Below are positions 42,777-61,091 of a stretch of DNA of 61,091 bases, piece after piece (the stretch's first letter is position 1; every line of letters starts with the position of its first letter). Source of the DNA: Acholeplasma laidlawii (GTDB taxonomy: Bacteria > Bacillota_I > Bacilli_A > Acholeplasmatales > Acholeplasmataceae). The stretch is taken from contig NZ_JADNRS010000030.1 of the NCBI RefSeq assembly GCF_015709225.1, forward strand, positions 1 through 61,091, read 5' to 3'. Below the pieces are notes generated by a model. That model was not told the DNA's origin. It saw nothing but the letters and a program-made list of their open reading frames with translations, and made no database searches. The translations under genes were made by a program, and so were the position numbers.

Positions 42777-42839
42777 CATTGAATAAAAATTTTAATCATG
42801 TTATAATTATATTTGCGAAAACTATAAGGAGAATTTGAC

Positions 42840-43481: not shown

Positions 43482-43501
43482 CTCAACTAAAGAAGATAAA
43501 A

Positions 43502-43527
43502 AAATACTTCGAACGAAGTATTTTTTA
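43502..43527 (+). terminator. intrinsic terminator (between convergent genes)
   Basis: AAATACTTCG and CGAAGTATTT (43502-43511, 43514-43523) followed by TTTATTTATT. Confidence 0.75.
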
Positions 43528-43531
43528 TTTA

Positions 43532-43789
43532 TTAAAGCAGTTTTTTTAATAATACGCTAATTTCTTCAATCTTTTCTTCTGGACTGCCTGCATTAATTGA
43601 GTCAAGTACACAAGTATTTAAATGATTGACCAAAAGCTCTTTTTGAGCTTTTTTTAAAAGGGCAATTGAAGCATTGATTTGTGTAGAAATATCTAAACAA
43701 TATCTATCATCTTCAGTCATTTTAATTACAGACTCTACCTGACCTTGAGCAGTTTTTAGTAGTTTGATTATATTTTTATGATCATGCAT
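43532..43789 (-). CDS. csoR: CsoR-family copper-sensing repressor
   Basis: An 85-residue all-helical repressor of the CsoR/RcnR family. The Cu(I) ligands C31, H56 and C60 have exactly the C-x24-H-x3-C spacing of mycobacterial CsoR (36, 61, 65). Conserved AQGQVESVIKM is the N-terminal DNA-contact helix. It should release DNA on binding Cu(I). The ribosome site is GAGGT. No copper ATPase is adjacent, so the pump lies elsewhere or one of the window's ATPases is controlled. Confidence 0.92.
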   Translation of the reverse strand: MHDHKNIIKLLKTAQGQVESVIKMTEDDRYCLDISTQINASIALLKKAQKELLVNHLNTCVLDSINAGSPEEKIEEISVLLKKLL

Positions 43790-43807
43790 GATTTTACCTC
43801 GCTTACA

Positions 43808-43830
43808 TACCCCCCCCTTATTAGGGGTTA
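43808..43830 (-). promoter_or_regulatory. CsoR operator
   Basis: A C-rich/G-rich inverted repeat TACCCC ... GGGGT(T)A with an eight-C run (43810-43817). G-tract inverted repeats of this type are the known CsoR operators. It lies just downstream of the -10 box of csoR, so autorepression is expected. Confidence 0.65.
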
Positions 43831-43834
43831 CTTT

Positions 43835-43863
43835 ATTCTATCATAAAAATAAAAAATGTTCAA
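43835..43863 (-). promoter_or_regulatory. csoR promoter
   Basis: On the minus strand TTGAAC (43863-43858), a 17-bp spacer and TAGAAT (43840-43835). Confidence 0.7.
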
Positions 43864-43912
43864 AAAGTATGTAAAAACAATTAGAAAAAAATAATTTATA
43901 CTAAAAGTTTGA

Positions 43913-43918
43913 TATAAT
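43913..43918 (+). promoter_or_regulatory. extended -10 promoter of argS
   Basis: TATAAT at 43913-43918 preceded by TGA, divergent from the csoR promoter 50 bp away. Confidence 0.55.
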
Positions 43919-43940
43919 ATGATAAATGGAGATGATATGC

Positions 43941-45611
43941 ATGATAGAGCAAATTAAATTAGAGCTCAGACAATTATTATTTGATCATTTAGATATAGAA
44001 GATGTTGTATTAGAAGTACCTAAAAGAGGCGATTCTGATTTGGCAATTCCATTATTTGGATATCAAAAACAAATGGGTAAAAAATTACCTGAAATCTTTG
44101 ACTTATTTAAAGATATATTAATTCAACATCATTTAGTGGAATCTGTAGTGTTTACTGCAGGATTTTTAAACATTTATTTAAAACGATTAGAGGTTTCAAA
44201 ATCTATTTTAAATTCAATACATGATGAGAAACAATCCTTTGGCACACAACCAAATAACAATAAAACAGTTGTTATTGACTATTCTTCACCGAATATTGCT
44301 AAAAGCTTTAGTGTTGGTCATTTACGTTCAACGGTTATCGGTAATAGTTTAAAATTAATTTACCAAAAATTAGGTTATAACGTTGTAGGGGTTAATCATC
44401 TAGGTGACTGGGGTACTCAGTTTGGGTCTATGATGGTTGCATACCGTATGTGGGGTGACAAGGATAAAATTAAGGCTAATCCAATTGATGAACTACAAGC
44501 ACTTTATGTACGTTTTCACGAGGCAGCTGAAAAAGATGAATCTTTAAAACAAGAAGCACGTGATGCTTTCTTAAAATTAGAACAAGAAGATCCTGAATAT
44601 ACAAAACTATGGACTTACTTTAGAGAAGTATCTTTACAAGAGTTTATGAACATGTACGATATTTTAGATGTAAGTTTTGATAGCTATAATGGTGAAGCGT
44701 TCTACAATGATAAAATGGATAGAGTTATAAAAGAACTAGAAGATAAAAACCTACTTGTTGAAGATCAAGGTGCAATGGTTGTTAAATTAGAAGAAGACAC
44801 ACCACCCGTACTGATTAAAAGAAGTGATGGTGCTACATTATACACAACAAGAGATCTAGCAGCACTACTTTATAGAAATGATACATATCATTTTGATAAG
44901 GCATTATATGTTGTTGGTAATGAACAAAAACTTCATTTTGAAAACTTGAAGAAAGTTGTCAAAATGATGGGTTATAATTTTAATATCGAACACATTAACT
45001 TTGGTCTTGTTCTACAAGATGGAAAAAAGATGTCTACTAGAAAAGGTAAGACTACGAAGTTAGATTATGTACTAAATCAAGCAGTATTAAAAGCAAAACA
45101 AGCGATTGAAGAAAAAAATCCAAACTTAGAAAATAAAGATCAAGTAGCAAAAGTTGTAGGTATTGGGGCTGTTATCTTTAATGACCTTAAAAATGATAGA
45201 ACTTTAAATATTGAATTCGATTTAGATGGTATGCTTAAGTTTGAAGGGCAAACTGGACCATATCTGCTATATTCTATTGTAAGAATTTTCTCTATTCTAA
45301 AATCAAATACTATAGATATTAGTCAAGTAGACTATACACTGTATCAAGATGAAAATTATTATAGTTTAATTAAGGTACTTGATCAATTCCCAAGTATTGT
45401 TCAAAGAGCAGCAGAAAGTTATACACCATCTACAGTAGCTAAGTATGTATTACAGTTATCACAAGAATTTAATACATTTTATGCTAAAGTAAAAATTAAT
45501 GATAGTAATGATGTCGTAAGACAAACGAATCTTTTATTAGTAGAAAGTATATTAAATATCTTAATCGAGGGCCTAAGACTTCTAGGTATGAAGCATTTAG
45601 AAGCAATGTAA
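43941..45611 (+). CDS. argS: arginyl-tRNA synthetase
   Basis: A 556-residue class I synthetase. An N-terminal additional domain precedes VIDYSSPNIAKSFSVGHLRS (HIGH-equivalent GHLR), HLGDWGTQFG, and the KMSTRKG loop; the C-terminal anticodon-binding domain is normal. ATG 43941 is chosen for GGAGATG 8 bp upstream; ATG 43926 would place five extra residues in front. It is followed after 1 base by the flippase-like gene. Confidence 0.96.
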   Translation: MIEQIKLELRQLLFDHLDIEDVVLEVPKRGDSDLAIPLFGYQKQMGKKLPEIFDLFKDILIQHHLVESVVFTAGFLNIYLKRLEVSKSILNSIHDEKQSFGTQPNNNKTVVIDYSSPNIAKSFSVGHLRSTVIGNSLKLIYQKLGYNVVGVNHLGDWGTQFGSMMVAYRMWGDKDKIKANPIDELQALYVRFHEAAEKDESLKQEARDAFLKLEQEDPEYTKLWTYFREVSLQEFMNMYDILDVSFDSYNGEAFYNDKMDRVIKELEDKNLLVEDQGAMVVKLEEDTPPVLIKRSDGATLYTTRDLAALLYRNDTYHFDKALYVVGNEQKLHFENLKKVVKMMGYNFNIEHINFGLVLQDGKKMSTRKGKTTKLDYVLNQAVLKAKQAIEEKNPNLENKDQVAKVVGIGAVIFNDLKNDRTLNIEFDLDGMLKFEGQTGPYLLYSIVRIFSILKSNTIDISQVDYTLYQDENYYSLIKVLDQFPSIVQRAAESYTPSTVAKYVLQLSQEFNTFYAKVKINDSNDVVRQTNLLLVESILNILIEGLRLLGMKHLEAM

Positions 45612-45612
45612 T

Positions 45613-46662
45613 ATGGAAAATAATAGTAATAACAACAATACAAAATCAAATAAATTATGGTTAAATGGAATCGTTGTAGTAGTTATACTATTAACACTCT
45701 TCACTATTGTTGGTAGTTTAAACGATTTTAATGAAATATTTAGTACAATCAAAACCATGGATAATAGGTTTTTATGGCTAGCATTAGGAGCAAGTTTTTT
45801 AAGTTTTGTCTTTTTATCAATTTCTAATCATATTGTACTTAGAGCATTAAATAAAGAGATTAGTTTAGTGGACGGCTTCTTAATACAGTCTATTGAAACA
45901 TTTTTTAATGGCATCACACCATTTTCAAGCGGTGCCCAACCATTTCAGTTATATTATTATAGGAAAATGGGTGTTGCATCGAATCAAGCAACATCAGTGC
46001 TTGCGGTAAACTTTATTATCTTCCAAACCGTATCTGTTATATTATCTACAATCGGTATGGCTATTTATTTTCAAGATATTTTAAATGTAATGGGTCATAA
46101 TATTATCTACATACTTATTGGTTATACGATTAATACAGCGATCCTAGTTGGATTATTCTTATTGGGATATGTTCGAACTGCATATAAATTATTTGAAGCA
46201 ATATTTAGATTCTTTGAGCGATTTAATTGGACCAAGAAAACAGCTAATAAATTAAAATTAAGAACTGAAAAATTTGTTAATGAATTTCAAGGTGGAGTCA
46301 AATTTCTATTTACAAAAAAACGTGTATTTATCCTAAGTTCACTAACAAAACTTATTTCTTTAACGCTACTTTATTCAACAACAGTAATCATAGTAAGAGC
46401 ACTTGGTCAATCAATAAGTATAAATAATGCATTCTATTTGTTTTATTCAAGTATACTAGCTGTAACAACCATGATGTTTGTACCTCTACCTGGTGCAAGT
46501 GGTGGCACGGAGCTTTCGTTTAGCTTATTATTAACAGGTAAAATGCCGAGTGTGCAAGTTGTAACAGTTATGTTAATATGGCGTATTGTTACGTACTACT
46601 TAGGTTTACTATTTGGATTTATCGGTTTTTTATTATTAAAAACTAGGAGAACAACTAAATGA
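45613..46662 (+). CDS. flippase-like integral membrane protein (YbhN/LPG-synthase TM family)
   Basis: A 349-residue protein with about eight helices after an Asn-rich cytoplasmic head. Signatures of the UPF0104/LPG-synthase transmembrane family are ITPFSSGAQPFQLYYYRKMGV and the late PLPGASGGTELSF. Members of this family move or help make lipid-linked molecules. It overlaps the glucolipid synthase gene by 4 bases, so a role in handling glucosyldiacylglycerol is a reasonable inference, not a proven one. Confidence 0.8.
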   Translation: MENNSNNNNTKSNKLWLNGIVVVVILLTLFTIVGSLNDFNEIFSTIKTMDNRFLWLALGASFLSFVFLSISNHIVLRALNKEISLVDGFLIQSIETFFNGITPFSSGAQPFQLYYYRKMGVASNQATSVLAVNFIIFQTVSVILSTIGMAIYFQDILNVMGHNIIYILIGYTINTAILVGLFLLGYVRTAYKLFEAIFRFFERFNWTKKTANKLKLRTEKFVNEFQGGVKFLFTKKRVFILSSLTKLISLTLLYSTTVIIVRALGQSISINNAFYLFYSSILAVTTMMFVPLPGASGGTELSFSLLLTGKMPSVQVVTVMLIWRIVTYYLGLLFGFIGFLLLKTRRTTK

Positions 46663-47855
46663 GAATAGGAATATTTTCAGAAGCGTATCTACCACTTATT
46701 TCAGGTGTAGTCACATCGGTAGTTAATTTAAAAGAAGGACTGGAAGCCTTAGGACATGAGGTGTATATCATTACGCCTATTCCATCTAAAGATAAATTAG
46801 AAAACGATCCGAGTGTGATTCGTATTCCAGGATGGGTTATACCAAGAAAATCTTTAAAGGGTTTTAGGTTAGTTCCTTTTGTTAAAAGATATGTCAAAAA
46901 AATACGTAAACTCAAACTAGATGTTGTGCATATACACACAGAGTTTTCTATGGGTAAATTAGGTTTGGCGGTTGCAAAAAAAGAACGTATTCCTAGTGTC
47001 TATACATTACACACAAGCTATCAGGACTACACCCATTATGTATCCAAGTTACTTACCAAATTTGCACCAAATGTAGCTAAAAAGTTAGCGGCTAAAATAA
47101 ATAATCAATATACTAAAAATTGTCATATGACAATTGTTCCAACTAAGAAAATTTATGATAAAATGATTAGGTTGAAACATGATGGTGAGTTTACAATTAT
47201 CCCTTCAGGTATCAATTTAAAACCGTTTTATAAGTCAAGTCACACAGTAGATCAGGTACAAGCACTTAAAGATAAGTTAGGCATTAGAAATGATGAGTTT
47301 GTAGCTATCCTTGTAGCACGAATTGCTAAAGAAAAATCTATTGGTGATTTGGTTGAAGCTTTTATAGAATTTTATAAGAGTTATCCGAATTCGAGATTCA
47401 TCATCATCGGTGATGGCCCGGATAAACCAACATTAGACAAACTGATAGATTCTAAAAAAGCATCTAAGTATATTAATACTTTAGGATTTGTCAAAAACAC
47501 AGAAGTGGGTCTTTATTATCAAATTGCAGATGTATTCTTAAATGCATCTACAACTGAAACTCAAGGACTAACTTATGTAGAAGCACTTGCAGCATCACTT
47601 CCTATTATAGTAAGATATGATGATGTATTTGATGCGTTTGTTGAAGATGGTAAAAATGGTATCTTCTTTAATAAGAATGAAGAGCTAGTTAAACATCTAA
47701 TTCACATTAGACAAAACCCTGAGATATTAAGCACACTATCTAAAAATGCTGAAAACTCAACAAAACCATATGCTAAAGAAGTATATGCAAAAAGTTGTGA
47801 AACATTGTATCTGGATTTAATAGATAAAAACAACGAAAAATTGAATAAAAAGTAG
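46659..47855 (+). CDS. mgs: alpha-monoglucosyldiacylglycerol synthase (GT4)
   Basis: A 398-residue membrane-surface glucosyltransferase that adds glucose from UDP-glucose to diacylglycerol, the first glucolipid step of Acholeplasma membranes. The GT-B N-terminal domain (MRIGIFSEAYLPLISGVVTS; amphipathic basic stretch RLVPFVKRYVKKIRKLK) and the retaining GT4 motif E300-x7-E308 (ETQGLTYVE) are seen. Length and text agree closely with my recollection of A. laidlawii alMGS. Overlaps the flippase-like gene through ATGA. Confidence 0.93.
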   Translation: MRIGIFSEAYLPLISGVVTSVVNLKEGLEALGHEVYIITPIPSKDKLENDPSVIRIPGWVIPRKSLKGFRLVPFVKRYVKKIRKLKLDVVHIHTEFSMGKLGLAVAKKERIPSVYTLHTSYQDYTHYVSKLLTKFAPNVAKKLAAKINNQYTKNCHMTIVPTKKIYDKMIRLKHDGEFTIIPSGINLKPFYKSSHTVDQVQALKDKLGIRNDEFVAILVARIAKEKSIGDLVEAFIEFYKSYPNSRFIIIGDGPDKPTLDKLIDSKKASKYINTLGFVKNTEVGLYYQIADVFLNASTTETQGLTYVEALAASLPIIVRYDDVFDAFVEDGKNGIFFNKNEELVKHLIHIRQNPEILSTLSKNAENSTKPYAKEVYAKSCETLYLDLIDKNNEKLNKK

Positions 47856-47873
47856 GCTTATGCCTGCTTATAT

Positions 47874-47957
47874 CCCCGTGTGGCGAAATGGTAGACGCGC
47901 TTGACTCAAAATCAAGTAGTGAAGACTGTGCTGGTTCGAGTCCGGTCACGGGGACCA
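47874..47957 (+). tRNA. tRNA-Leu (anticodon CAA)
   Basis: Acceptor CCCCGTG/CACGGGG, anticodon stem CTTGA/TCAAG with loop CTCAAAA (CAA), a class II variable arm, T arm with GGTTCGAGTCC, and an encoded CCA. It begins 18 bases after mgs and may share its transcript. Confidence 0.95.
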
Positions 47958-47969
47958 AGTTGAAAGAAT

Positions 47970-48002: not shown

Positions 48003-48112
48003 TTGGTAGATAGGGTTTTTTTCCCTATCTGCCGTTTCTGTATATTCTAAAATGATATCAGCAGTGGTGTTTGTTCGGGACTTTTTAGTGTTAATAGTCA
48101 AAAGTGCAACTA

Positions 48113-48185
48113 CAATTTAACGATTACTCAACAATTTACACGATTACTCAACAATTTAACGATTACTCAACAATTTAACGATTAC
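48113..48185. repeat. 19-20 bp tandem repeats before the restriction operon
   Basis: Direct repeats of CGATTACTCAACAATTTAA: units at 48121-48140 (with CA insert), 48141-48159 and 48160-48178, a partial unit at 48179-48185 and an 8-bp partial copy at 48113-48120. No spacers, so it is not CRISPR. The rest of 48003-48280 holds no gene. Confidence 0.85.
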
Positions 48186-48291: not shown

Positions 48292-48342
48292 TAATGCAAA
48301 TATCGATATATATTTTTGATTATTTTTAGAAGGAGAGATAAG

Positions 48343-49830
48343 ATGTCATCAGTAATATTAGGATTTGAGAATAAATTATGGGAAATGGCTGATAAGCTAA
48401 GGGGAAACATTGAAAGTTCTGAATATAAACACGTAGTATTAGGTTTGGTTTTTTTGAAATATATATCTGATTCATTTCTAGAAAGATATGAAGAAATAAA
48501 GGTTGAGTATCCAGGTTTAGAAGAAGATAGGGATGGATATACATCTAAGAATGTATTTTTTGTACCTAAAGAAGCAAGATGGGATTTTATTAAAAGCAAT
48601 GCTAAACAAGCTACTATCGGACAAGTAATCGATAATGCAATGATTTTAATTGAAAGAGAAAATCCAACATTGAAAAATGTTTTACCTAAAGATTATGCAA
48701 GACCAGAATTAGACAAAACTAGATTAGGTGAAATGATTGATATGTTTTCATTTGATGTAGGTGGAAAAGAAGCAAGAGCAAAAGACGTATTAGGTAGAGT
48801 TTATGAATATTTCTTAAAGAAGTTTGGTGTAGGTGAAGGTCAATTTTATACACCACCAACCATGGTTGATTTATTAGTTAATATGATAGAACCATACAAA
48901 GGTAGAGTTTATGATCCATGTTGTGGGTCTGGTGGTATGTTTGTTCAGTCAGCTAAATTCGTAGAAGAACATCAAGGTAAAATTGGTGATATTTCTATCT
49001 ATGGTCAAGAGTATACTGCGACAACATGGCGCTTAGCAAAGATGAACCTAGCTATCCGTGGTATTGATGGTAACTTAGGTGCAAGGGATGCTGACACATT
49101 TACTAATGATCAACATAAAAACTTAAGAGCAGACTATATTTTAGCTAATCCTCCATTTAACATTAAAGACTGGGGTCATGCTCATTTAACAGATGATGCA
49201 AGATGGAAGTGGGGAACACCTCCATCAGGTAATGCCAATTATGCATGGATTAGCCATATGGTAAGCAAATTAAGTCCTAAAGGCACAGCAGGATTTGTTT
49301 TAGCTAATGGATCATTATCAACAAGTCAAAAAGAAGAATATCAAATTAGAAAAAACATGTTAGAAGAAGGATTAGTAGACTGTATAGTCGCAATGCCTTC
49401 TCAGTTGTTTTATGACGTTTCAATACCTGTAAGTTTATGGATTATGTCTAAAGATAAAGAAAATAGAAAAGATAAAGTCTTATTTCTTGATGCTAGAAAA
49501 ATGGGATACATGGAAACCAGACGACATAGAGAATTGACTAAAGAAGAAATGGAACAAATTTATTCTACATATCATAACTGGAAAAACAATGATGGTTATG
49601 AAGATGTAGATGGCTTTTGTAAATCAGCAACACTCGATGAAATTAGAACACACGATTATGTTTTAACTCCTGGAAGATATGTTGGACTTGAAGAAGTTGA
49701 AGATGATGGTATTCCATTTGAAGAAAAGATGGAAAAACTAACCTCTGAGCTTTCTGAATTGTTTGAAGAATCTAAATCTCTTGAGGAGAAGATTAAAGAG
49801 AACTTAAGAGGCATTGGTTATGAGCTATAG
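48343..49830 (+). CDS. hsdM: type I restriction-modification system methyltransferase subunit
   Basis: A 495-residue N6-adenine DNA methyltransferase. Motif I YDPCCGSGGMFVQ and motif IV N269-P-P-F are clear, and the N-terminal helical domain (ADKLRGNIESSEYKHVVLGLVFLKYISD) is typical of HsdM. ATG 48343 follows AAGGAGAG by 8 bp. Overlaps hsdS by 11 bases. Confidence 0.96.
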   Translation: MSSVILGFENKLWEMADKLRGNIESSEYKHVVLGLVFLKYISDSFLERYEEIKVEYPGLEEDRDGYTSKNVFFVPKEARWDFIKSNAKQATIGQVIDNAMILIERENPTLKNVLPKDYARPELDKTRLGEMIDMFSFDVGGKEARAKDVLGRVYEYFLKKFGVGEGQFYTPPTMVDLLVNMIEPYKGRVYDPCCGSGGMFVQSAKFVEEHQGKIGDISIYGQEYTATTWRLAKMNLAIRGIDGNLGARDADTFTNDQHKNLRADYILANPPFNIKDWGHAHLTDDARWKWGTPPSGNANYAWISHMVSKLSPKGTAGFVLANGSLSTSQKEEYQIRKNMLEEGLVDCIVAMPSQLFYDVSIPVSLWIMSKDKENRKDKVLFLDARKMGYMETRRHRELTKEEMEQIYSTYHNWKNNDGYEDVDGFCKSATLDEIRTHDYVLTPGRYVGLEEVEDDGIPFEEKMEKLTSELSELFEESKSLEEKIKENLRGIGYEL

Positions 49831-51010
49831 TGAATGGAAAACTACGAAATTATTTGAACTCATAAATACAGTATCAGAAACATATAAATTTAGTGAAAAT
49901 CAAACAGTTGTATTGGTTAATACATCTGATATTCTTGAAGGAAAAGTCCTTAATCACAGTAAGGTGTTTCCTGTTAATGTTGCAGGTCAATTCAAAAAAA
50001 CATTTAAGAGAAATGATATTTTATATAGTGAGATAAGACCAGCAAATAAAAGGTATGCCTATATTGATTTTGAATCAAATAATTATGTTGCATCAACAAA
50101 ACTAATGGTTTTAAGAACTAAAAGTAAAGATATTTATAATAAATTCTTATATCATTTTCTAAAGAGTAATGACACATTAAAAACTTTACAGGCAGTCGCA
50201 GAATCTAGATCAGGAACATTTCCACAAATTACATTTACAGAATTATCGAATTTAGAAATAAATCTCCCTACTTTAAAAGAACAACAAGCAATAGCAAACA
50301 TCCTATCATCGCTTGATGACAAAATCGAACTCAATAACAAAATCAATAAAAACCTAGAAGAATTAGCCCAAACCCTTTATAAACATTGGTTTGTTGATTT
50401 TGAATTTCCAAATGAAGAAGGTTTACCATACAAATCAAGTGGTGGAAAAATGGTAGAAAGTGAACTGGGTTTAATACCTGAAGGCTGGGAAATCAGAGAA
50501 CAAGGTGACTACTTTCCAGTTATAACAGGTAAAAAAAATGCTAATTATGCAACGTTAGATGGTAAATTTAAATTTTTCACTTGTAGTCAACAAGTTTTTC
50601 AAGCTCCTGATTATTCTTTTGACGGAACAGCTATTTTAGTAGCTGGTAATGGAGACTTTAATGTTAAATATTATAGCGGTAAATTTGAAGCTTATCAAAG
50701 AACATATGTTTTAATACCAAAGAATTCAAATTTAGCAGGATTATTTTATTTCATGATAAAAGAAAATCTAAATAAAATAACTAGCGGCCATAGAGGTAGT
50801 GTTATTAAATTTATCACAAAAGGTGACTTAGAAAATTATAAGATTATAACGCCTGATAATGAAAAGTTAGAAAAATTCTCATATTATTTTACTAATATTA
50901 TTAATACCACTGAACATAACAAAAGCGAGAATGAAAAATTAACTAAACTAAGAGATTTACTATTACCTAAACTAATGAGTGGTGAAATTAAAGTACCAAT
51001 AAAGGAGTAG
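49820..51010 (+). CDS. hsdS: type I restriction-modification specificity subunit
   Basis: A 396-residue subunit that sets DNA target specificity. Two target recognition domains are separated by the conserved helical spacer (LKEQQAIANILSSLDDKIELN) and followed by a second copy (KLRDLLLPKLMSGEI). The second recognition domain starts after GLIPEGWE. The ATG at 49820 lies inside hsdM. Only one hsdS is present, so no shufflon-like variation is visible here. Confidence 0.94.
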   Translation: MSYSEWKTTKLFELINTVSETYKFSENQTVVLVNTSDILEGKVLNHSKVFPVNVAGQFKKTFKRNDILYSEIRPANKRYAYIDFESNNYVASTKLMVLRTKSKDIYNKFLYHFLKSNDTLKTLQAVAESRSGTFPQITFTELSNLEINLPTLKEQQAIANILSSLDDKIELNNKINKNLEELAQTLYKHWFVDFEFPNEEGLPYKSSGGKMVESELGLIPEGWEIREQGDYFPVITGKKNANYATLDGKFKFFTCSQQVFQAPDYSFDGTAILVAGNGDFNVKYYSGKFEAYQRTYVLIPKNSNLAGLFYFMIKENLNKITSGHRGSVIKFITKGDLENYKIITPDNEKLEKFSYYFTNIINTTEHNKSENEKLTKLRDLLLPKLMSGEIKVPIKE

Positions 51011-51016
51011 TCCAAT

Positions 51017-54000
51017 ATGAATGAAAATAGATTCTATGAGTCCAACATTGAAGAAGCAGCTTTAGAATGGTTAGAAGAACTAGGCTATGGTACTGAATAT
51101 GGACCAAATATTAGTCCTGGTGGCGATAATCCTTTAAGGGAATCTTATTATGATGTCATAATTAAAGATAAATTAGAAGAGTCTTTGTATCTGATAAATA
51201 AAGGCTTACCTAAGTCTGCAATTAAAGATGCCTTAAGAGAAATATTGATATCTAAGCACGTATCTTTAATTGAAAATAATAAAGCATTTCAAAAAATGTT
51301 AACAGATGGTGTTAGTGTTAGGTATAAAGATAAAAACGGGGACAATAAACATGGTTTAGTTAAGGTTATTGATTTTGATAATATTAATAACAATGATTTT
51401 TATGCTGTGAACCAATATACAGTTATTGACACACAATATGAGAAACGACCTGACATTGTTGTTTTTGTTAATGGTATTCCAATTTCAGTATTTGAACTTA
51501 AAACAGCATCAGATGAAAATATTACTATTGATGCTGCATACAATCAAATCAAAACATACCAAGAACAAGTACCGTCATTATTTATATATAATTCATTTAA
51601 TGTAATAAGTGATGGGCTACATGCTAAAGTAGGAACGATTACTTCAAACAAAGATTGGTACATGACATGGCGTACGATGGATGGTGAAAAATTAGCACCG
51701 ACATCGATACCTCAATTAGAAGTAGTTATAAAAGGAATGTTTCATAAAAAACGCCTTTTAGATATAATTAAAAATTTTATATTGTTTCAAGATAACAACC
51801 ATGAATATACAAAGATATTAGCGGGGTATCACCAGTATCATGCAGTTAATACTGCAGTTACCTCTAGCTTAGATGCTACAAGCGATGAAGGTGATAAAAG
51901 AATTGGAGTTGTTTGGCATACTCAAGGTAGTGGTAAATCTCTATCAATGGTTTTTTATGCTGCTAAAATGATAACTTCAAAAGAATTATCTAATCCTACA
52001 ATTGTGGTTATTACAGATAGAAACGATTTAGATGATCAACTGTATTTAACCTTTGCTAAATCGAGTGAACTACTTAGAACAAATCCAATTCAAGTAGAAT
52101 CAAGAGAACACTTAAAACAAGAATTAAACAAAAGAACTTCTGGTGGAATTATCTTTACCACTATTCAAAAATTTACTGAAGCCTCATTAAGCGAACCATT
52201 AACAAATAGAAGCAATGTGATTGTGATTGTTGATGAAGCACATAGAAGCCAGTACGGCTTTAGTGCTAAAATTGTTACTGATAATAATAGTGCATCGGAA
52301 AAGTATGGATACGCTAAATACATGCGTGATTCATTGCCTAATGCTTCATATATCGGTTTTACAGGGACACCCATCGAATCAGCTGATAAAAATACAAGAG
52401 CCGTCTTTGGTGATTATATTGCTGTTTATGATATGGCACAATCAGTAGCTGATGGTAATACTGTTAGAATTTATTATGAAAGTAGAATTGCTAAAATTGA
52501 TTTTACTGATGATTACTTCAATATTGATGATGATTATGAAGAGATCACTGAATACCAAGAAGAAGTCCAACAAGAATCCTTAAAGCGTAAATGGGCAAGG
52601 TTAGAAAAAATAGTTGGTAGTCAAGATAGAATCAGAAATATTGCCAATGATATTGTAACTCACTTTGAAAACAGACAAGTTTCAATGGAAACACCAGTCG
52701 GTAAAGCAATGGTAGTTGCGATGAGTAGAAGAATTGCAGTTGAGCTTTATAATGAGATTATTAAAATAAGACCTGAATGGCATTCTGATGATTTATTAAA
52801 GGGTAAAATAAAGATCGTAATGACTGGAAATTCAAGCGACCCGCTTGAATGGCAAAAACATACTGGAACAAAGCAAACAAGAGAAACTCTTTCACGTAGA
52901 ATGAAAGATAATAATGATGAACTTGAAATAGTTATTGTTAGAGATATGTGGTTAACAGGATTTGATGTGCCAAGCATGCATACCATGTATATAGATAAAC
53001 CAATGCAAGGTCATAACCTAATGCAAGCTATAGCAAGAGTAAACCGTGTTTTTAGAGAAAAACAAGGTGGTTTAATTGTAGACTATATTGGTATTGCAGA
53101 TAACCTTAAAAAGGCCTTATCAGAGTATACAGATGATGATAGAAATGAAACAGGACTTGATACCGAGGTTGCAGTTTCATTAATGATAGAAAAAATTGAT
53201 GTGATAAGAGAAATGTTACATCATCATGATTATTCAAAATATTTCAGTGGTACAAATTCAGATAAACTTCAAGCTATTATGGAGACTATTGACTATATCA
53301 TAGGATTAAGGGAAGAAAGAAAAAAGGATTATTTAAAACTTGTTTCTGAGTTGTCTAAAGCATACTCTTTATGTTCAACAACTGAAGAAGCAGAAAAACT
53401 AAATGTTGAAATTAGTTTCTATAAAACAGTCCGTGCAGGCATTATAAAACTTTCTACAGATGATTCGAAAAAGAAAACTGTTGACCAATTAGATCACGAA
53501 TTGAATCAGTTAATTTCAAAATCTCTTAAATCAGATGAAGTGATTGATATAATGGCAGAAATCGGTGCAGACAAACCGGATATCTCTATATTATCTGATG
53601 AATTCCTAGAAGAATTTAAAAATATGAAACACAAGAATGTTGCTGTAGAAATGCTCAAAAGGTTAATTCAAGGAAAATTAAGAGGGTTTTCTAAAAAGAC
53701 AATAGTAAGATCTAGACTATTTTCAGAGATGTTAGAAGAATCACTTAGAAAGTATCAAAATAGGTTAGTTGAATCAACTGTAATTATTCAAGAATTGATT
53801 TCTTTAGCTAAAGAAATTACCAAAGCAAGTGAAGAAGGTAAAGAAACCGGATTATCAGATGAAGAGTATGCATTCTATGAAGCCTTATCATCCAATGTTA
53901 CAGCCAAAGATATCATGGGAACTGATATATTAAAAGAAATAGCAAAAGAGTTAACTAATAAAATCAAATCAAGTACAACGGTTGATTGGAATATCAGAGA

Positions 54001-54148
54001 AACAGTCAGAGCTGATATTAGATTTCAAATTAGAATTTTACTAAAGAAATATAACTATCCACCGGATGATCCATTAAACCCTAATAACTATGATGAATCT
54101 ATTAAATTGATATTAGAACAAACTGAACTACTGTTTACAAACAAGTAA
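51017..54148 (+). CDS. hsdR: type I restriction endonuclease subunit
   Basis: A 1043-residue translocase-nuclease. The N-terminal PD-(D/E)xK site is D146 ... E160-L-K162 (FELK). Helicase motifs are GSGKS (304-308), DEAH (406-409), TGTPIE, and [10 protein letters not shown]. All catalytic residues seem intact, so the enzyme is likely active. Ribosome site AAAGGAG; 6 bases after hsdS. Confidence 0.96.
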
Positions 54149-54159
54149 AGGAGATCGTC

Positions 54160-54655
54160 ATAATTATTAAAGGTTATGTTTATGTTTTAACTAATCCGAG
54201 TTTTAGAGATGATTGGGTTAAAATTGGGTAAAAGTAGTAGGTTACCAGAAGTCAGAGGTAGAGAGCTGTATAATACTGCAGTACCACTACCGTATGAAAT
54301 ATTTGCAACGCTACAAACTGGAAAATATAATGAAGCAGAAAGAATGATCCACAGAAGTATTGATAGAATTTCAGATCTAAGAATTAATAAAGGACGCGGG
54401 TTTTTTAATATTGCTTCAGAATCTGTATAGGAATTACTAGCTGACATTAAAGAATTTTTAGGTGATGAAACTATAACTGCAGTTGTTACTGCTGAACGAC
54501 ATATTTTATTTGAAAACGAACAATGGCTACTATCACCTTTAGTAAGAGATCTTTACACCAGACAAGGCAATGTAAATTCAAGCGGCGCATATCAAGGTCC
54601 AGCATATTTCACATACAATGGAATTAAATTAACTTATTTAAAACTGAATAACTAA
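54160..54655 (+). pseudogene. decayed GIY-YIG-like (T5orf172/MUG113 type) nuclease gene
   Basis: Six bases after an AAAGGAG the frame begins with ATA instead of ATG and reads KGYVYVLTNPSFRDDWVKIG, a GIY-YIG-type start (GYVYVLTN...VKIG). An extra base near 54226-54228 shifts the frame (TAA 54229), the next frame reads on (KSSRLPEVRGRELYNTA) to an in-frame TAG at 54428-54430, and then to TAA 54653-54655. Repaired, the protein would be about 164 residues. It is placed as fourth gene of the hsd operon. Three separate lesions suggest a real pseudogene rather than sequencing error. Confidence 0.72.
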
Positions 54656-54666
54656 TATTATAAGTC

Positions 54667-54707
54667 AAAAGCGACCTAACTCAATATGAGCAAGGCCGCT
54701 TTTTTTA
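54667..54707 (+). terminator. terminator of the hsd operon
   Basis: AAAAGCG-A-CCT pairs with AGG-C-CGCTTTT, with an inner CTCA/TGAG hairpin, followed by T. Confidence 0.75.
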
Positions 54708-54708
54708 T

Positions 54709-54726
54709 ATGCTCTGCTATGAAAAA
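54709..54726. repeat. left copy of an 18-bp direct repeat flanking the sugar operon
   Basis: ATGCTCTGCTATGAAAAA, identical to 60913-60930. Both copies follow a terminator hairpin. They bracket exactly the LacI-neopullulanase-malEFG module. Confidence 0.75.
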
Positions 54727-54755
54727 TAGAATGAAAACAAATCATTTCATTTTCT

Positions 54756-54771
54756 GTGCAAACGTTTGCAC
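54756..54771 (+). promoter_or_regulatory. LacI-family operator O1
   Basis: GTGCAAACGTTTGCAC, a perfect 16-bp palindrome centred on CG, 8 bp upstream of the -35 box. Confidence 0.75.
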
Positions 54772-54778
54772 AATTTGA

Positions 54779-54807
54779 TTGACAAATATTAAGCAATATT
54801 GTATTAT
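54779..54807 (+). promoter_or_regulatory. promoter of the maltodextrin operon
   Basis: Consensus TTGACA (54779-54784), a 17-bp spacer and TATTAT (54802-54807). Confidence 0.75.
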
Positions 54808-54817
54808 TTAAGTGTAA

Positions 54818-54831
54818 TGCAAGCGTTTTAC
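54818..54831 (+). promoter_or_regulatory. LacI-family operator O2
   Basis: TGCAAGCGTTTTAC, an imperfect version of O1 and close to a cre site, at the predicted transcription start. It could bind CcpA or the local regulator. Confidence 0.55.
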
Positions 54832-54853
54832 ATATTGAAAGATATTGCAGGTA

Positions 54854-54869
54854 GAGCAAACGTTTGCTC
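54854..54869 (+). promoter_or_regulatory. LacI-family operator O3
   Basis: GAGCAAACGTTTGCTC, a perfect 16-bp palindrome just before the ribosome site of the regulator gene. Confidence 0.75.
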
Positions 54870-54884
54870 AAATAGGAGGAATTT

Positions 54885-55895
54885 ATGCCAACAATTAAAG
54901 ACATCGCAAAAAACTTAGGTTTATCATTTTCTACAATTTCAAGGGCATTAAATGATCACCCCTCTATTTCTGATAAAACTAAAGAACTCGTTAAAAATGA
55001 AGCGAAAAGATTGAATTTTACATCTAATGTATTTGCTAAAGGACTAACGAATAATAAATCGTATACAGTCACTTTAATTGTTAATATTGATGATGATGTG
55101 TCTTTCCAAAATCCGTATTTTTATGAAGAAATGTATGGTATTGAACGATATGTTTATCAAAAAGAATATTCGCTTATTGTTGCAAATATGAAGACGATGA
55201 TAAAAAATCAAAATATTGTTGATTATCTAGTTAAGTCAAGAAGAACAGATGGTATCATCCTACCATCAACCATCATTGATGATGCACTTATAGATACTTT
55301 ACATAAATATCAAATTCCATTTGTTTCAATTGGACAGCCAGTTTTAAATAAACTTCCAGTTTCATGGGTTGATATAGATAATCAGTTAGGAACAAATCAA
55401 GCAGCAAAGTTCTTAATAAATAAAGGACATAAAAACATTGCTTTCTTAGGTCTTGATAAGAAAAAAATGTTCTCTGTAAAACGTTGCGAAGGATATAAAG
55501 AAGCTTTAATTACAAGTAATTTGGAAGTTAGACACGAGTTGATTGTTGAATGTGAAAACACTAAAGATGACGGCTATAAAAATACGCAGGATTTATTTAA
55601 AAAATACCCAGATATTGATGCAATTATATGTGCAGATGAACTTATTTCGATTGGAGTCATTAAAGCGCTCAGTGAATTAGGTAAAAGCATTCCAAAAGAT
55701 GTATCAATTATATCCTTTGATAGTTCTTCAATTGCGCAAATCTCATACCCAGCAATCACGACAATTGATGTTGATTTATTCGAGTTGGGATATCAAAGTG
55801 CAAAGATACTCTTTGAACATATTGAGCACAATGGAATAAAAAATAAAGGATTATTAATTGGTACAGAGATCATAGAAAGAGAAACCACAGAGTAA
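54885..55895 (+). CDS. LacI-family maltodextrin regulator
   Basis: A 336-residue repressor with an N-terminal helix-turn-helix (TIKDIAKNLGLSFSTISRAL) and a periplasmic-binding-protein-like sugar domain. Three CG-centred palindromes surround its promoter, so autoregulation is likely. It is placed first in the operon, 6 bases before the neopullulanase. By context it resembles MalR-type regulators. Ribosome site AGGAGG. Confidence 0.92.
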   Translation: MPTIKDIAKNLGLSFSTISRALNDHPSISDKTKELVKNEAKRLNFTSNVFAKGLTNNKSYTVTLIVNIDDDVSFQNPYFYEEMYGIERYVYQKEYSLIVANMKTMIKNQNIVDYLVKSRRTDGIILPSTIIDDALIDTLHKYQIPFVSIGQPVLNKLPVSWVDIDNQLGTNQAAKFLINKGHKNIAFLGLDKKKMFSVKRCEGYKEALITSNLEVRHELIVECENTKDDGYKNTQDLFKKYPDIDAIICADELISIGVIKALSELGKSIPKDVSIISFDSSSIAQISYPAITTIDVDLFELGYQSAKILFEHIEHNGIKNKGLLIGTEIIERETTE

Positions 55896-55901
55896 TACAA
55901 G

Positions 55902-57587
55902 ATGAACAAATTAATTATACATAAAGAGACAAAAGAATACATATATCCATTATCACGTTCAAAAGTTCTTATAAAAGCTGAAGCAACATCAAAACAAATA
56001 TCTGAAATTACACTTCATTATTGGAAAAGATTTAGAAATCATACAAAGAAAACTAAAAAAATGTATTCGCTAAACCCAATGGGGAATAGCAGGTATTATT
56101 TCATAGAACTTGAGTTTGAAGATACCATAAGATATTTAAATTATATTTTTGAAATCAATCAAAATGGTAAAACATATTATTATTCACCTGCGGGTGTTCA
56201 GTCTAGTTTTCCTAAAAAATATTTCGAATTCCAAAGTGTAAACCACAATGATATTTTCGATATCCCAACGAATTTTGAGGGGGATATTTGTTATCATATT
56301 TTTCCGGAGAGATTTTACAACGGGAATAAAGAAAATGATCCTGAAGAAGTGGTGGCTTGGGATTCAATACCAACTAGAGAGAACTTTATGGGTGGGGATT
56401 TTGAAGGAATTAAACAAAAAATTCACTACTTAAATGAATTGGGAGTAAATACAGTTTTTCTTACACCAATATTCAAATCGCCATCAAATCATAAATATGA
56501 CACAATGGATTACTTTGAACTAGAACCTTCATTTGGATCCAACAGTGAATTTAATGATATGGTTGAGGAAATGTCAAAAAATCAAATCAAATTAGTACTA
56601 GATGGCGTATTTAATCATATCGGATATTATTCAGATATTTTCCAAGATGTGGTTAAAAATCAAAAAAACTCAAAATACTGGGACTGGTTCTTAATACATG
56701 GTAATGAACTCGATGTAGATAAAGTGAATTATGAATGTGTAGGCGACTACAAATATATGCCTAAGCTTAATACAGCTAATAAAGAGGTTCAAGCATATTT
56801 TAACAAAGTAGGGGCATACTGGATTTTGAAATATCATGTTGCAGGTTGGAGATTAGATGTGGGAGATGAATTAGATTTTACGTTTAGAAAATCATTTAGA
56901 CAACACATTAAATCAACCAGTAAGCAAAAACTTATTATGTCAGAAACTTGGCATAACGGGCAGGATTTATTACGTGGTGATGAAGTAGATACTATAATGA
57001 ATTATCGATTAAGAGATGCATTAATAGATATTCTAGTTTTAAAAGAAATTGATTTACCACAATTCAATGAACAAATTGAATCAATCTATTTTGATTATCC
57101 AAAACAAGTCCACCATATTTTATATAATCTTTTGGATAGTCATGATACAGCAAGGTTTTTAACTACTGCAAACGAAGATAAAGATATCCTGAAAATTGCA
57201 GCAGTAATTCAGTTCTTGTTACCAGGTATGCCAGTAATCTACTATGGCGATGAAATTGGTATGAAGGGTGAAACGGATCCATTATGTCGTGCAGGAATGA
57301 CGTGGAATCAAGTAGACTTAAATATATATAATTTTTATAAAGATTTAATTGAAATAAAGAAAAAACAAGTCTTCAAAACCGGTGATTTTAACATACTAGA
57401 AATAAGCGAAAAGGTGTTTTCATTTATACGATATGATGAAAATGAAACCTATTTAGTTGTTGTTAATCCCGGATTAATTGATGAATCGATTTCATTAAAG
57501 AAAGACGATTTAAAATGGTTAGAACTAAACAATGATTTTAATATTATAGTGGGTTCTAAATCATATGCTATCACTAAGATTAGGTAG
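55902..57587 (+). CDS. neopullulanase/cyclomaltodextrinase (GH13 with N-terminal domain)
   Basis: A 561-residue cytoplasmic GH13 enzyme that should hydrolyse imported maltodextrins. The first ~125 residues look like the CBM34-type beta-sandwich of GH13_20 enzymes. Catalytic signatures are DGVFNHIG, GWRLDVGDE with nucleophile D319, SETWH with acid E348, and LLDSHD with D415. There is no signal peptide. Start: ATG with a weak ribosome site (coupled to the regulator). Confidence 0.9.
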   Translation: MNKLIIHKETKEYIYPLSRSKVLIKAEATSKQISEITLHYWKRFRNHTKKTKKMYSLNPMGNSRYYFIELEFEDTIRYLNYIFEINQNGKTYYYSPAGVQSSFPKKYFEFQSVNHNDIFDIPTNFEGDICYHIFPERFYNGNKENDPEEVVAWDSIPTRENFMGGDFEGIKQKIHYLNELGVNTVFLTPIFKSPSNHKYDTMDYFELEPSFGSNSEFNDMVEEMSKNQIKLVLDGVFNHIGYYSDIFQDVVKNQKNSKYWDWFLIHGNELDVDKVNYECVGDYKYMPKLNTANKEVQAYFNKVGAYWILKYHVAGWRLDVGDELDFTFRKSFRQHIKSTSKQKLIMSETWHNGQDLLRGDEVDTIMNYRLRDALIDILVLKEIDLPQFNEQIESIYFDYPKQVHHILYNLLDSHDTARFLTTANEDKDILKIAAVIQFLLPGMPVIYYGDEIGMKGETDPLCRAGMTWNQVDLNIYNFYKDLIEIKKKQVFKTGDFNILEISEKVFSFIRYDENETYLVVVNPGLIDESISLKKDDLKWLELNNDFNIIVGSKSYAITKIR

Positions 57588-57660
57588 TTAAAATCATTTA
57601 GATAAGATGAAGGGCCCTCGGACTATCTAGATGAAATAAACATAAAAAAAGGAGATAAAC

Positions 57661-58884
57661 ATGAAAAAAATATACTTAATGGTTTTTACATTGTTACTAA
57701 CAACACTTGTAGCATGTTCACCTGATGATAAAGTAACAATCGAATTTTGGCACAATTATTCGGCCGGAGATGGTCAAGTGCAAGTTTTAAATACATTAAT
57801 TGAAGAGTTTGAAGCAGCAAATCCTAATATTAAAGTTGAGGCTGTATTCCAGGAATGGTCAGCTCTACGTGATGGTGTTGTATTAGGAGCGGGTACAGGT
57901 GTCTTACCTGATGTATTAAGAGGAGATATTGCATTTGTACCTCAATTCCATAGTTTAGATGTACTAGTGAAAATGTCAGATTTTGAAGATTATTCAGAAG
58001 TTGCAAAAACAATACTAGCTCAACCAAATTCAACTGCATTAATAAATGGTTCATACTATGGTATCGCTGCAAATACAAATACGAAAATATTATTTTATAA
58101 TGAAGATTTATTAGCGGCTAAAAACGTTGAAGTACCAACTAATCTTGAGGCATTATATGAAGCTGCACTCGCAGTATCAACAACAGATGTTGTTGGTATG
58201 GTTGAGCCTTGGACAGGTATTTGGAATTTTGGTCCAATGATTTGGTCAGAAGGTGGAGATATCTTGGCTCCAGACAATTCAACGGCTTCAGGTTATCTAA
58301 ATAGTGACATCGTTGTTGATGTTATTACTAAAATGAAACAATTATATGATGCGAAAGCATTAACTGGTTCATCAATGAATCCATCAGTGCTGGGTGATAC
58401 AGATGGTTGGGCAGCAGGTAAATATGCATTTCAATTAGATGGTCCGTGGAGAGGAACATCAAATGATGCAGCAGGTATTAACTACGGTGCTATACCTCTT
58501 CCAGCAGGTAAGGAAGGCTCTATTTCAGTACTTGGTGGAGAAGATTTCATGATTTTAGATAAAAAGGATACAGAAAAACGTGAAGCAGCTTGGAAATTCG
58601 TGAAATTCATGATTTCTGAAGAAGCTCAAGTGAAGATGGCTAAAAAAGGTCAGATGCCAGTCAATATTTCGGCATTAGACAATCAAGAAGTTTTAGAAGT
58701 TATGCCTTTATTACCAGTATTTAAAGAAGCATTACAAACAGCAAAATCAAGACCAGTTATTTCACAATGGTCAGAAATTGAAAACATTATTGCAGCAGCT
58801 TTTTCTGAAGCGATTATAGGAGCTAAACCAGTAAAACAAGCGCTAGATGCAGCAGTAGTTCAAATCGATGCATTACTAAAATAG
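57661..58884 (+). CDS. maltodextrin-type ABC importer substrate-binding lipoprotein
   Basis: A 407-residue extracytoplasmic sugar-binding lipoprotein (MalE/MsmE class). The signal ends in LVAC with C19 as lipid anchor. Conserved TIEFWHNYSAGDG, WAAGKYAFQLDGPW and the EEAQVKMAKKGQMPV region are typical of this class. Ribosome site AAAAGGAG. The ligand, probably maltodextrin, is inferred from the adjacent GH13 gene. Confidence 0.9.
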   Translation: MKKIYLMVFTLLLTTLVACSPDDKVTIEFWHNYSAGDGQVQVLNTLIEEFEAANPNIKVEAVFQEWSALRDGVVLGAGTGVLPDVLRGDIAFVPQFHSLDVLVKMSDFEDYSEVAKTILAQPNSTALINGSYYGIAANTNTKILFYNEDLLAAKNVEVPTNLEALYEAALAVSTTDVVGMVEPWTGIWNFGPMIWSEGGDILAPDNSTASGYLNSDIVVDVITKMKQLYDAKALTGSSMNPSVLGDTDGWAAGKYAFQLDGPWRGTSNDAAGINYGAIPLPAGKEGSISVLGGEDFMILDKKDTEKREAAWKFVKFMISEEAQVKMAKKGQMPVNISALDNQEVLEVMPLLPVFKEALQTAKSRPVISQWSEIENIIAAAFSEAIIGAKPVKQALDAAVVQIDALLK

Positions 58885-58893
58885 TAGAAGATT

Positions 58894-58928
58894 TTGTATG
58901 GGGGTTATTATTATAACTCCCTATACAA
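58894..58928 (+). other. intercistronic hairpin between binding protein and permease genes
   Basis: TTGTA and TACAA flank an inner GGG-x-TTAT/ATAA-x-CCC stem. There is no T run. Such hairpins after binding-protein genes often stabilise the upstream message or reduce readthrough. Confidence 0.55.
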
Positions 58929-58948
58929 TTTATTAGACGAGGTATTAT

Positions 58949-59845
58949 ATGAAAGAGAAATTTAAAGAATTTAGAAAAAAATTTGACTGGCGTACATTGG
59001 TTATTTTCTTACCTGGTTTAATATTTGTATCTATGTTTACTTTTTATCCAATGATTAAAATGTTTTTAATGAGTTTTACTGATTGGAATATTGGTTTAAA
59101 TCAAACATCCCCATTTGTTGGATTTGAAAACTATTATAGAGTGTTAACGGATCCAATTGCACATATAGCATTAGAGAATACGTTCTTATATCTATTACTT
59201 ACTGTACCTACACAGATGATATTAGGATTATTAGTTGCACTTATGATTAATAAAATTACAAAATTTTCAATACCATTTAGAGTACTTTACTACTTACCTG
59301 TAATTTCATCATGGGTAGTGGTAGCACTTTTATTTAGATATATTTTCAACAATGATGGACTTATGAATTACTTTTTAATGGATGTTTTACATATTACAAA
59401 TGAAAAAATAGGTTGGTTATCGACTCGATTTAGTGCATTATTTGCAGCATCAATTCTTGGTGTATGGAAGGGTATAGGCTGGAATATGATTATATTCTTA
59501 GCAGCCTTACAAGCAGTTCCAAAGGATTATTATGAGGCTGCAGATATTGATGGAGCGAATGCGTGGAAAAAGTTTATGCATATTACACTTCCGATGATTA
59601 AAGGAACATTTACATTTGCTTTAGTTATGCTTACGATTGGTGCATTTAATACCTATACGCCAATTGCAGTCTTAACAGAGGGAAATCCTCATCATCAAAC
59701 AGAAGTAGTATTAACTTGGTTGAACTTCAAGACCTTCTCTGCGCTTGATATGGGATATTCTGCAGCATTATCAATGATCTTAATGGCTTTAATTGTAATT
59801 ATTACAATAACTATGCTGAAAGTTATTAATAGAAAGGAGAAATAA
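58949..59845 (+). CDS. maltodextrin-type ABC permease (MalF class)
   Basis: A 298-residue permease with about six helices and the EAA loop EAADIDGANAWKKFMHITLP that docks the ATPase. It lacks the large extra domain of enteric MalF, as usual in Gram-positive relatives. Two bases separate it from the next permease. Confidence 0.9.
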   Translation: MKEKFKEFRKKFDWRTLVIFLPGLIFVSMFTFYPMIKMFLMSFTDWNIGLNQTSPFVGFENYYRVLTDPIAHIALENTFLYLLLTVPTQMILGLLVALMINKITKFSIPFRVLYYLPVISSWVVVALLFRYIFNNDGLMNYFLMDVLHITNEKIGWLSTRFSALFAASILGVWKGIGWNMIIFLAALQAVPKDYYEAADIDGANAWKKFMHITLPMIKGTFTFALVMLTIGAFNTYTPIAVLTEGNPHHQTEVVLTWLNFKTFSALDMGYSAALSMILMALIVIITITMLKVINRKEK

Positions 59846-59847
59846 CG

Positions 59848-60696
59848 ATGTTTAAAAAGAAAATTGATCCACTTAAATTAACTAGTTATGTTCTCTTAAC
59901 ACTTGGATTAATCATTGTAGTTTTGCCTATGTTTTATATGGTTGTATCTGCATTTAAAGATAATGATCAAGTATTTGCATATCCTCCTAAAATTATCCCG
60001 TCACTTAGTGAGTTAACTCTTGAAAATTTCAAATATGTATTTGATAATTCACCATTTATAACTTATTTTTTAAATACAATCTTTGTTGCACTAATGACAG
60101 TTTTAATATCAATAATTGTGTCATCAACACTGGCATATTCATTTGCTAGACTTTATATTCCAGGTAAAAAAATTATCTTTGGGTTAGTACTTTCCATTAT
60201 GATGATTCCAGGTCTTGCACTAATCGTTCCACAATTTGAATTAGCAGTTATGTTTAAATTAGTTAATAATGTATGGGGTGTTATTCTATTTTATGTAGCA
60301 TGGGTTACTCCATTTTCCACTTTTTTAATTAAGGGCTATATTGAGGATAATATACCTTTAGAACTTGAAGAATCAATTCAAGTTGATGGAGGTTCGATAT
60401 TTACGGTATATAAAAATATAATATTACCTATGACATCACCAGTCATTGCAAGTATTTCTATTCTAAATTTCTTGTTTCCTTTTGAAGAACTTGGATGGTC
60501 AACCGCAATATTGAAAACAGATAAATATCGTACACTACCGGTTGCTATTACAATGTTTTTTCAATCGCATGGAAGAACAGATTGGGGATATGTATTTTCA
60601 ATGACTACCATGGCAATGATACCAGTATTGATTATTTATATACTTCTGCAAAAGTTTTTTATAAGTGGCTTATCAAGTGGTTCAATCAAAGGATAA
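59848..60696 (+). CDS. maltodextrin-type ABC permease (MalG class)
   Basis: A 282-residue permease with about six helices and the EAA-like loop EESIQVDGGSIFTVYKNIILP. It is the partner of the previous permease. No ATPase gene follows, so a shared MsmX/MalK-type ATPase from elsewhere must energise the system. Confidence 0.9.
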   Translation: MFKKKIDPLKLTSYVLLTLGLIIVVLPMFYMVVSAFKDNDQVFAYPPKIIPSLSELTLENFKYVFDNSPFITYFLNTIFVALMTVLISIIVSSTLAYSFARLYIPGKKIIFGLVLSIMMIPGLALIVPQFELAVMFKLVNNVWGVILFYVAWVTPFSTFLIKGYIEDNIPLELEESIQVDGGSIFTVYKNIILPMTSPVIASISILNFLFPFEELGWSTAILKTDKYRTLPVAITMFFQSHGRTDWGYVFSMTTMAMIPVLIIYILLQKFFISGLSSGSIKG

Positions 60697-60862
60697 ATAA
60701 AAGCCAACTCGCGAAAAAAACAGTGTTAAACTATTTAAAGGAAATTTAAGGTTTCAAATGCTAAGAAGAAACTTTAAGTATAGTTGGAATCAAAACTTTA
60801 AATTTTATTAAATGGTATGATGCATGTTTATCGTTACGGACATATAAGCATATCTAACAAAA

Positions 60863-60895
60863 ATAGACTTGATTAATTTATCAAGTCTATTTTTG
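60863..60895 (+). terminator. terminator downstream of the maltodextrin operon
   Basis: ATAGACTTGAT and ATCAAGTCTAT (60863-60873, 60880-60890), then TTTTTG. The stretch 60697-60862 shows no convincing gene. Confidence 0.75.
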
Positions 60896-60912
60896 TATAT
60901 TATATTGAGTCA

Positions 60913-60930
60913 ATGCTCTGCTATGAAAAA
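60913..60930. repeat. right copy of the 18-bp direct repeat
   Basis: ATGCTCTGCTATGAAAAA, identical to 54709-54726. It lies immediately before GTGGGACACATAGG, which may be the terminal inverted repeat of the IS3-type element. Confidence 0.75.
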
Positions 60931-61091
60931 GTGGGACACATAGGTACCACCTAAAAGAACATATTGTATAATATAAAAATATAAGGAGCAGAAAACCTAT
61001 GAATGAGTATAGTGTTGACTTCAAACTAAAGATTGTTAAGATGATATTAAATGATCACATCAGTAAAAAATCCATTATGAGGGAATATAAC
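60931..61091 (+). mobile_element. left end of an IS3-type insertion sequence (truncated by window)
   Basis: GTGGGACACATAGGTACC resembles the G/A-rich ends of IS3-family elements. It is followed after about 60 bases by a transposase reading frame that continues past the window. The exact boundary cannot be fixed without the other end. Confidence 0.5.
60999..61091 (+). CDS. IS3-family transposase OrfA, N-terminal part
   Basis: ATG 60999 behind AAGGAG opens a frame that runs off the window: YSVDFKLKIVKMILNDHI then SKKSIMREYN. This is the helix-turn-helix start of IS3 OrfA-type transposases (YSxEFKLKIV). 31 residues are visible. Confidence 0.75.
   Translation, partial: MNEYSVDFKLKIVKMILNDHISKKSIMREYN

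Follow-up and report, generated by a model that had tools for sequence, protein, structure and literature searches.

The maltodextrin operon and its flanking 18-bp repeats

The window analysed here, a stretch of 61,091 nucleotides of Acholeplasma laidlawii, is contig C23 in full. Near its right end the forward strand carries a maltodextrin operon, which encodes a LacI-family regulator (54885..55895; PF00356, PF00532), a neopullulanase/cyclomaltodextrinase-like GH13 enzyme (55902..57587; PF00128, with cyclomaltodextrinase as the best NCBIfam match, below cut-off), a solute-binding protein (57661..58884; PF13416, PF01547) and two ABC permeases (58949..59845 and 59848..60696; both PF00528). Two palindromes on the same strand precede the regulator gene: TGTGCAAACGTTTGCACA (54755..54772), a probable LacI-type operator, and GAGCAAACGTTTGCTC (54854-54869), whose function is likewise putative. 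The best relatives of the GH13 enzyme are 48% (G060) and 41% (G097) identical, and both genomes have the same operon gene order, with the G097 regulator running off the end of its contig. The seven congeners lack a close copy of the operon; six of them have enzyme matches at E <= 1e-60 that are at most 37% identical.

The original prediction described an 18-bp direct repeat around this operon, and its account of the locus holds. The sequence ATGCTCTGCTATGAAAAA occurs exactly at 54709-54726 and 60913-60930 on the same strand, the sole pair in the window with up to three mismatches allowed; the regulator, neopullulanase (amylase) and transporter genes lie between the copies, type I restriction genes (hsdM, hsdS and hsdR; 48316..54148, forward strand) lie to the left, and a terminator-like hairpin with a T-run stands before each copy. 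The hairpin directly 5' of the left copy (54668..54706, forward strand) was read from the sequence and was overlooked by a one-mismatch terminator scan, since its stem has internal mismatches; the one at the operon end (60860..60895, forward strand) was also picked up by the scan. Between hsdR and the left copy, positions 54150-54660 hold a degenerate open reading frame remnant broken by stops, with related DNA in G040 (79% over 217 bp).

The length of the repeat is by itself evidence of little force, and the repeat search was post hoc. Shuffled windows contained a mean of 0.15 matches to the 18-mer, with two matches in none of 100 shuffles. In 60 first-order Markov windows simulated with matching composition, the mean number of exact direct repeats of at least 18 bp was 0.27, and 20% of these windows contained at least one. 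The element that stands above chance is the coincidence of one copy with the terminus of an insertion sequence (IS). With up to two mismatches, the genome of the window (1.33 Mb, 55 contigs) has three matches, namely both window copies and C51:3408, which is another IS left end. With at most one mismatch, the 18-mer occurs at 12 places in six of the 88 genomes of the family that were searched.

An IS3-family element at the right copy

An IS3-family IS carries bases 2-18 of the 18-mer, TGCTCTGCTATGAAAAA, as its outer terminal inverted repeat; its left end occupies 60914..61091 (forward strand) and is cut by the contig end. This segment, with the left inverted repeat TGCTCTGCTATGAAAAAGTGGGACACATAGGTACCACC and an orfA start at 60999, is identical at 177/178 positions to a complete copy in the congener G007; the first 31 codons of orfA, the only ones that lie in the window, encode 31 amino acids identical to those of that copy. 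When the genome was searched with 60890-61091, contig C51 aligned from exactly 60913, DNA further left being different, and C23 and C51 end at one common base within the shared IS sequence, as at a collapsed repeat. All four bases occur before TG across other copies, and the IS terminus is therefore the TG at 60914. The right 18-mer combines a single A of flank with the IS end, and the rest of the element lies past the contig end. An IS3-type element had been predicted to start right after the right copy; an IS3-family element is present, but it starts at base 2 of the copy. The original prediction had also named, as speaking against its own reading, the possibility that the 18-mer was simply part of many IS ends, and this is what we found: it belongs to an IS3 terminal repeat present at other IS copies.

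The complete copy in G007 (L030) is 1405 bp long and ends in TGCTCTGCTATGAAAAAGTGGGACACATAGGTACCACC and, on the opposite strand, TGCACTGCTATGATTTTCTAGGACACATAGGTACCACC. It resembles the IS150-like subgroup of the IS3 family in this length, in imperfect terminal inverted repeats that open with TG and close with CA, in an orfA with a helix-turn-helix (PF01527, 26.8 against a cut-off of 24.1) and in an orfB with a DDE/rve integrase core (PF00665, 38.6 against a cut-off of 32.6). The NCBIfam model transpos_IS3 gave 127.8 on the partial orfB, under its cut-off of 160. The ends presumably resemble those of IS150 as well. The element departs from the family in two respects: orfB of the G007 copy is split across two frames (the copy in G021:C2 gives a single continuous orfB match), and no target duplication was seen at any of the three complete copies. 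Nor was a duplication seen at the C23/C41 pair; later rearrangement is possible in these cases. The missing target duplications leave standard transposition unconfirmed as the mode of insertion, and target duplication is uninformative as a test of a mobile unit here, as complete IS copies have none either. A suspicion raised by eye, that the IS inserts into palindromes, was unsupported: the stems measured 3-6 bp, and the null distribution was centred on 3-4.

The window's assembly also contains right ends of this IS, on contigs C41 and C52; its two left and two right ends collapse there, and the IS body is unassembled. C52 (G000, L009) carries a dnaE only 38% identical to the assembly's own dnaE on C21 and is probably contamination by a second organism carrying the same IS; C51 may come from that second organism as well.

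Solo IS tips at the left copy and across the order

The left copy carries just the tip of this IS, here called a solo tip. The segment TGCTCTGCTATGAAAAA at 54710..54726 (forward strand) is identical to the G007 left end at 17/17 positions and unrelated to it from the next base, departing from every compared IS end immediately after base 17; the A at 54709 is flank, outside the tip. The tip is an IS terminus, and we infer that it descends from an IS insertion. The left junction, sought as a direct empty site for the operon alone, had no full-length match in 40 relatives. A MITE was considered and rejected, as no inverted second tip occurs anywhere in the window (up to nine substitutions over 31 bp, up to four over 17 bp).

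We carried out a census of such tips in 160 genomes of the order using TGCWCTGCTAYGAAAA as the query. Tips were found at 19 places in 11 of the genomes, and a reversed control pattern had no matches in the same 160. Eleven of the 19 continue as an IS, recognised by transposase homology or by IS-end sequence running into a contig end. The remaining eight are solo and retain 16, 16, 17, 17, 26, 27, 27 and 30 bp of the IS; one of the two 16-bp cases may be a coincidence, since an estimate based on the per-site probability gives about 0.6 matches by chance. Solo tips recur, and their frequency together with their narrow length range is the sole unexpected element of the case. Neither G060 nor G097, the genomes with the closest relatives of the GH13 enzyme, carries a tip in this order-wide census. 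In one scan, with random positions unmatched for intergenic location, a terminator was present within 80 bp upstream of 7/19 tips versus 54/760 random positions; judged by eye, the left copy in the window is an eighth tip with an upstream terminator.

One solo tip is joined to a truncated serine recombinase at a common CGAAAA, and another is joined to an istB gene. The former gene, a truncated large serine recombinase in G005 (L190:7360-8181), has the IS tip as its 5' end, directly after a terminator, and opens with the same 16 bases as the tip. Derivation of the left tip from a serine recombinase gene was rejected, because relatives carry I-L-x-N-E-K-Y without the tip at this position: this holds for 23 of 26 relatives on viral contigs (5-8 mismatches from the tip), while L220 has M-L-S-N-E-K-F (four mismatches) and two were unscored, L203 beginning inside the match and L216 matching later residues only.

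Might the left 17-mer have nothing to do with the IS? The simulated windows described above lend some weight to a chance match, as does a search of a named genome collection (257 Gb), where the exact 17-mer was present in 48 stretches. By title, 15 of these are Acholeplasma- or Izemoplasma-type (one 'Bacilli' bin counted) and 33 belong to unrelated taxa, close to the roughly 30 chance 17-mers that our arithmetic predicts for a collection of this size; sequences were inspected for the former group, and the latter were sorted by title. The chance expectation for the exact 17-mer is, on the other hand, 1.4e-5 per window and 3e-4 per genome, and neither the empty reversed control nor the recurrence of solo tips within the same family fits a coincidence. 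We consider chance at this single 17-bp locus to be highly improbable, with a small residual probability.

For IS911, PMC7986276 cites partial (single-end) and IR-targeted transposition products that undergo host processing, which sets a precedent for attachment of an IS3-family element by one end followed by such processing. The tips described here differ from those products in that nothing of the element is left but 16-30 bp of its end, and in being known from sequence alone. The left copy would be a scar consisting of the outermost 17 bp of an IS of this kind, just past a terminator and joined at an A5 run to the operon promoter region, with the IS body having been lost or never fully installed. 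Such a tip probably originated by an abortive one-ended insertion with host repair or by a microhomology deletion at the A run.

An accessory island at tRNA-Leu(CAA)

Comparison with a congener places the start of the inserted DNA at tRNA-Leu(CAA) (47874..47957, forward strand), directly past the 3' end of which an island begins. The window is 92% identical to the congener G002 over 42701-47966. In G002 the tRNA ends ...GGGGACCAATCTTAAAG and is directly followed by a gene starting MKKQVIQR; in the window it is followed by AGTTGAAAG..., and the G002 continuation ...CCCAATCTTAAAG with the MKKQVIQR gene is found on C41, some 480 bp to the right of where the IS ends. G002 thus has its empty site at the tRNA-Leu 3' end, which in the window lies about 6.8 kb left of the left 18-mer copy. 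If a single IS links C23 to C41, as the G002 gene order suggests, the island would extend from 47958 to C41:724 and measure about 14.8 kb. It contains, in order, the type I restriction genes, the solo tip, the maltodextrin operon, the IS and an RCC1-repeat gene reduced to its C-terminal part and truncated at the IS edge.

Insertion exactly at a tRNA 3' end, accessory genes and an empty site in a sister species liken it to known tRNA-3'-end islands with restriction genes, and it is ordinary in kind. It is unlike them in the short repeat arrays at both ends and in the absence of an integrase from the examined part, that is, among window ORFs of at least 80 aa from 45000 on, the interior of the island's IS being unassembled. 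In G004 it is other DNA that is inserted at this tRNA-Leu, and the site is therefore a hotspot.

Close to the left end of the island is a four-repeat array of the CAATTTA(CA)CGATTACT type (48112..48185, forward strand). Arrays similar to this CAATTTAACGATTACT-type array occur after tRNA-Gly in G007 (L030) and in G001 (L118). A recurrent Acholeplasma end module consists of two to four GGGTGCTAA repeats, mostly followed by TTTGTATYAAAATAGGTAGCATCACACAT and often by a terminator (L189 and L190, at G005:C7, 287-308 kb, and a locus at 335 kb; L158, L191-L194; L010:651-725), and the window's island terminates in a GGGTGCGTAA variant of it. G005 has seven such arrays in one orientation over about 48 kb, resembling a cassette chain, which in the part read stand between accessory genes (metal ATPases and others). 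The last 0.43 kb of the island (C41, L010:301-727), partly non-coding, is 89% identical to strain zrk7 (L076:7589-7140), which belongs to a different genus and has a solo IS tip close to the shared segment; this sharing is recent transfer. Elsewhere, in L047 and L055, a common block of about 1.2 kb adjoins IS ends with differing junctions in two genomes; it comprises a 288-aa membrane protein gene and a truncated gene that we take to resemble malic enzyme.

The empty site bears directly on the original interpretation, which was partly supported. The module had been proposed to be inserted: the operon is indeed accessory DNA in an inserted stretch with IS DNA involved, but the 18-mer is not the insertion boundary, because the G002 empty site begins at the tRNA-Leu 3' end. 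Excision by recombination at the repeat found no support, the 18-mer being an IS terminus, and a search of species representatives returned no genome in which a single repeat copy stands without the operon, the empty site that the original prediction proposed to look for. That the 18-mers are attachment-like repeats for insertion or excision of the operon is extremely improbable, and we reject it: position and direct orientation are all that agree with it, while the right copy is an IS terminus seen at many unrelated sites, the empty site is at the tRNA, no recombinase gene is present among ORFs of at least 80 aa between the copies, and 18 bp is short for RecA-dependent recombination.

The truncation of the RCC1-repeat gene at the IS edge, IS-derived ends in the same orientation on both sides, and an operon without a close copy in congeners would all be compatible with a decayed composite transposon, in which two direct IS copies brought the operon into the island and the left IS eroded to its tip. 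Such a history is unlikely: there is no second IS body, the left side being 17 bp only, and solo tips are found elsewhere without such an arrangement. A common target duplication is also missing, although complete IS copies have none either.

ISEcp1-type elements mobilise passenger genes by a one-ended process, and the geometry here is similar, with a solo left tip, the operon and, beyond it, an IS with an inward-facing right end. It differs from that of ISEcp1-type elements in that the inner part of the inverted repeat is missing from the 17-bp tip and no target duplication supports a unit. We regard as very doubtful the broader conjecture that this Acholeplasmatales IS group regularly leaves 16-30 bp scars by one-ended insertion, often past terminators, and that the operon scar together with the inward IS right end could mobilise the operon as a surrogate left end.

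We consider it likely that both 18-mers are IS ends, an intact terminus on the right and a scar on the left, within an accessory island at tRNA-Leu(CAA). On this reading an IS3-family (IS150-like) element stands between the operon and the truncated RCC1-repeat gene, and the right copy is its left terminus; the restriction genes, scar, operon, IS and RCC1 fragment would form a single island at the tRNA 3' end, and the repeat would be involved neither in the placement nor in the excision of the operon.

With this analysis the idea of a recombination site around a sugar operon falls away as a false lead, and the real boundary moves to a tRNA gene. In the census, eight of 19 tips lacked an IS behind them, and the lengths that they retain are not what a 1.4-kb element eroding at random would leave. 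The solo tips are a testable by-product that would bear on how single-end intermediates of IS3-family elements are resolved in wall-less bacteria.
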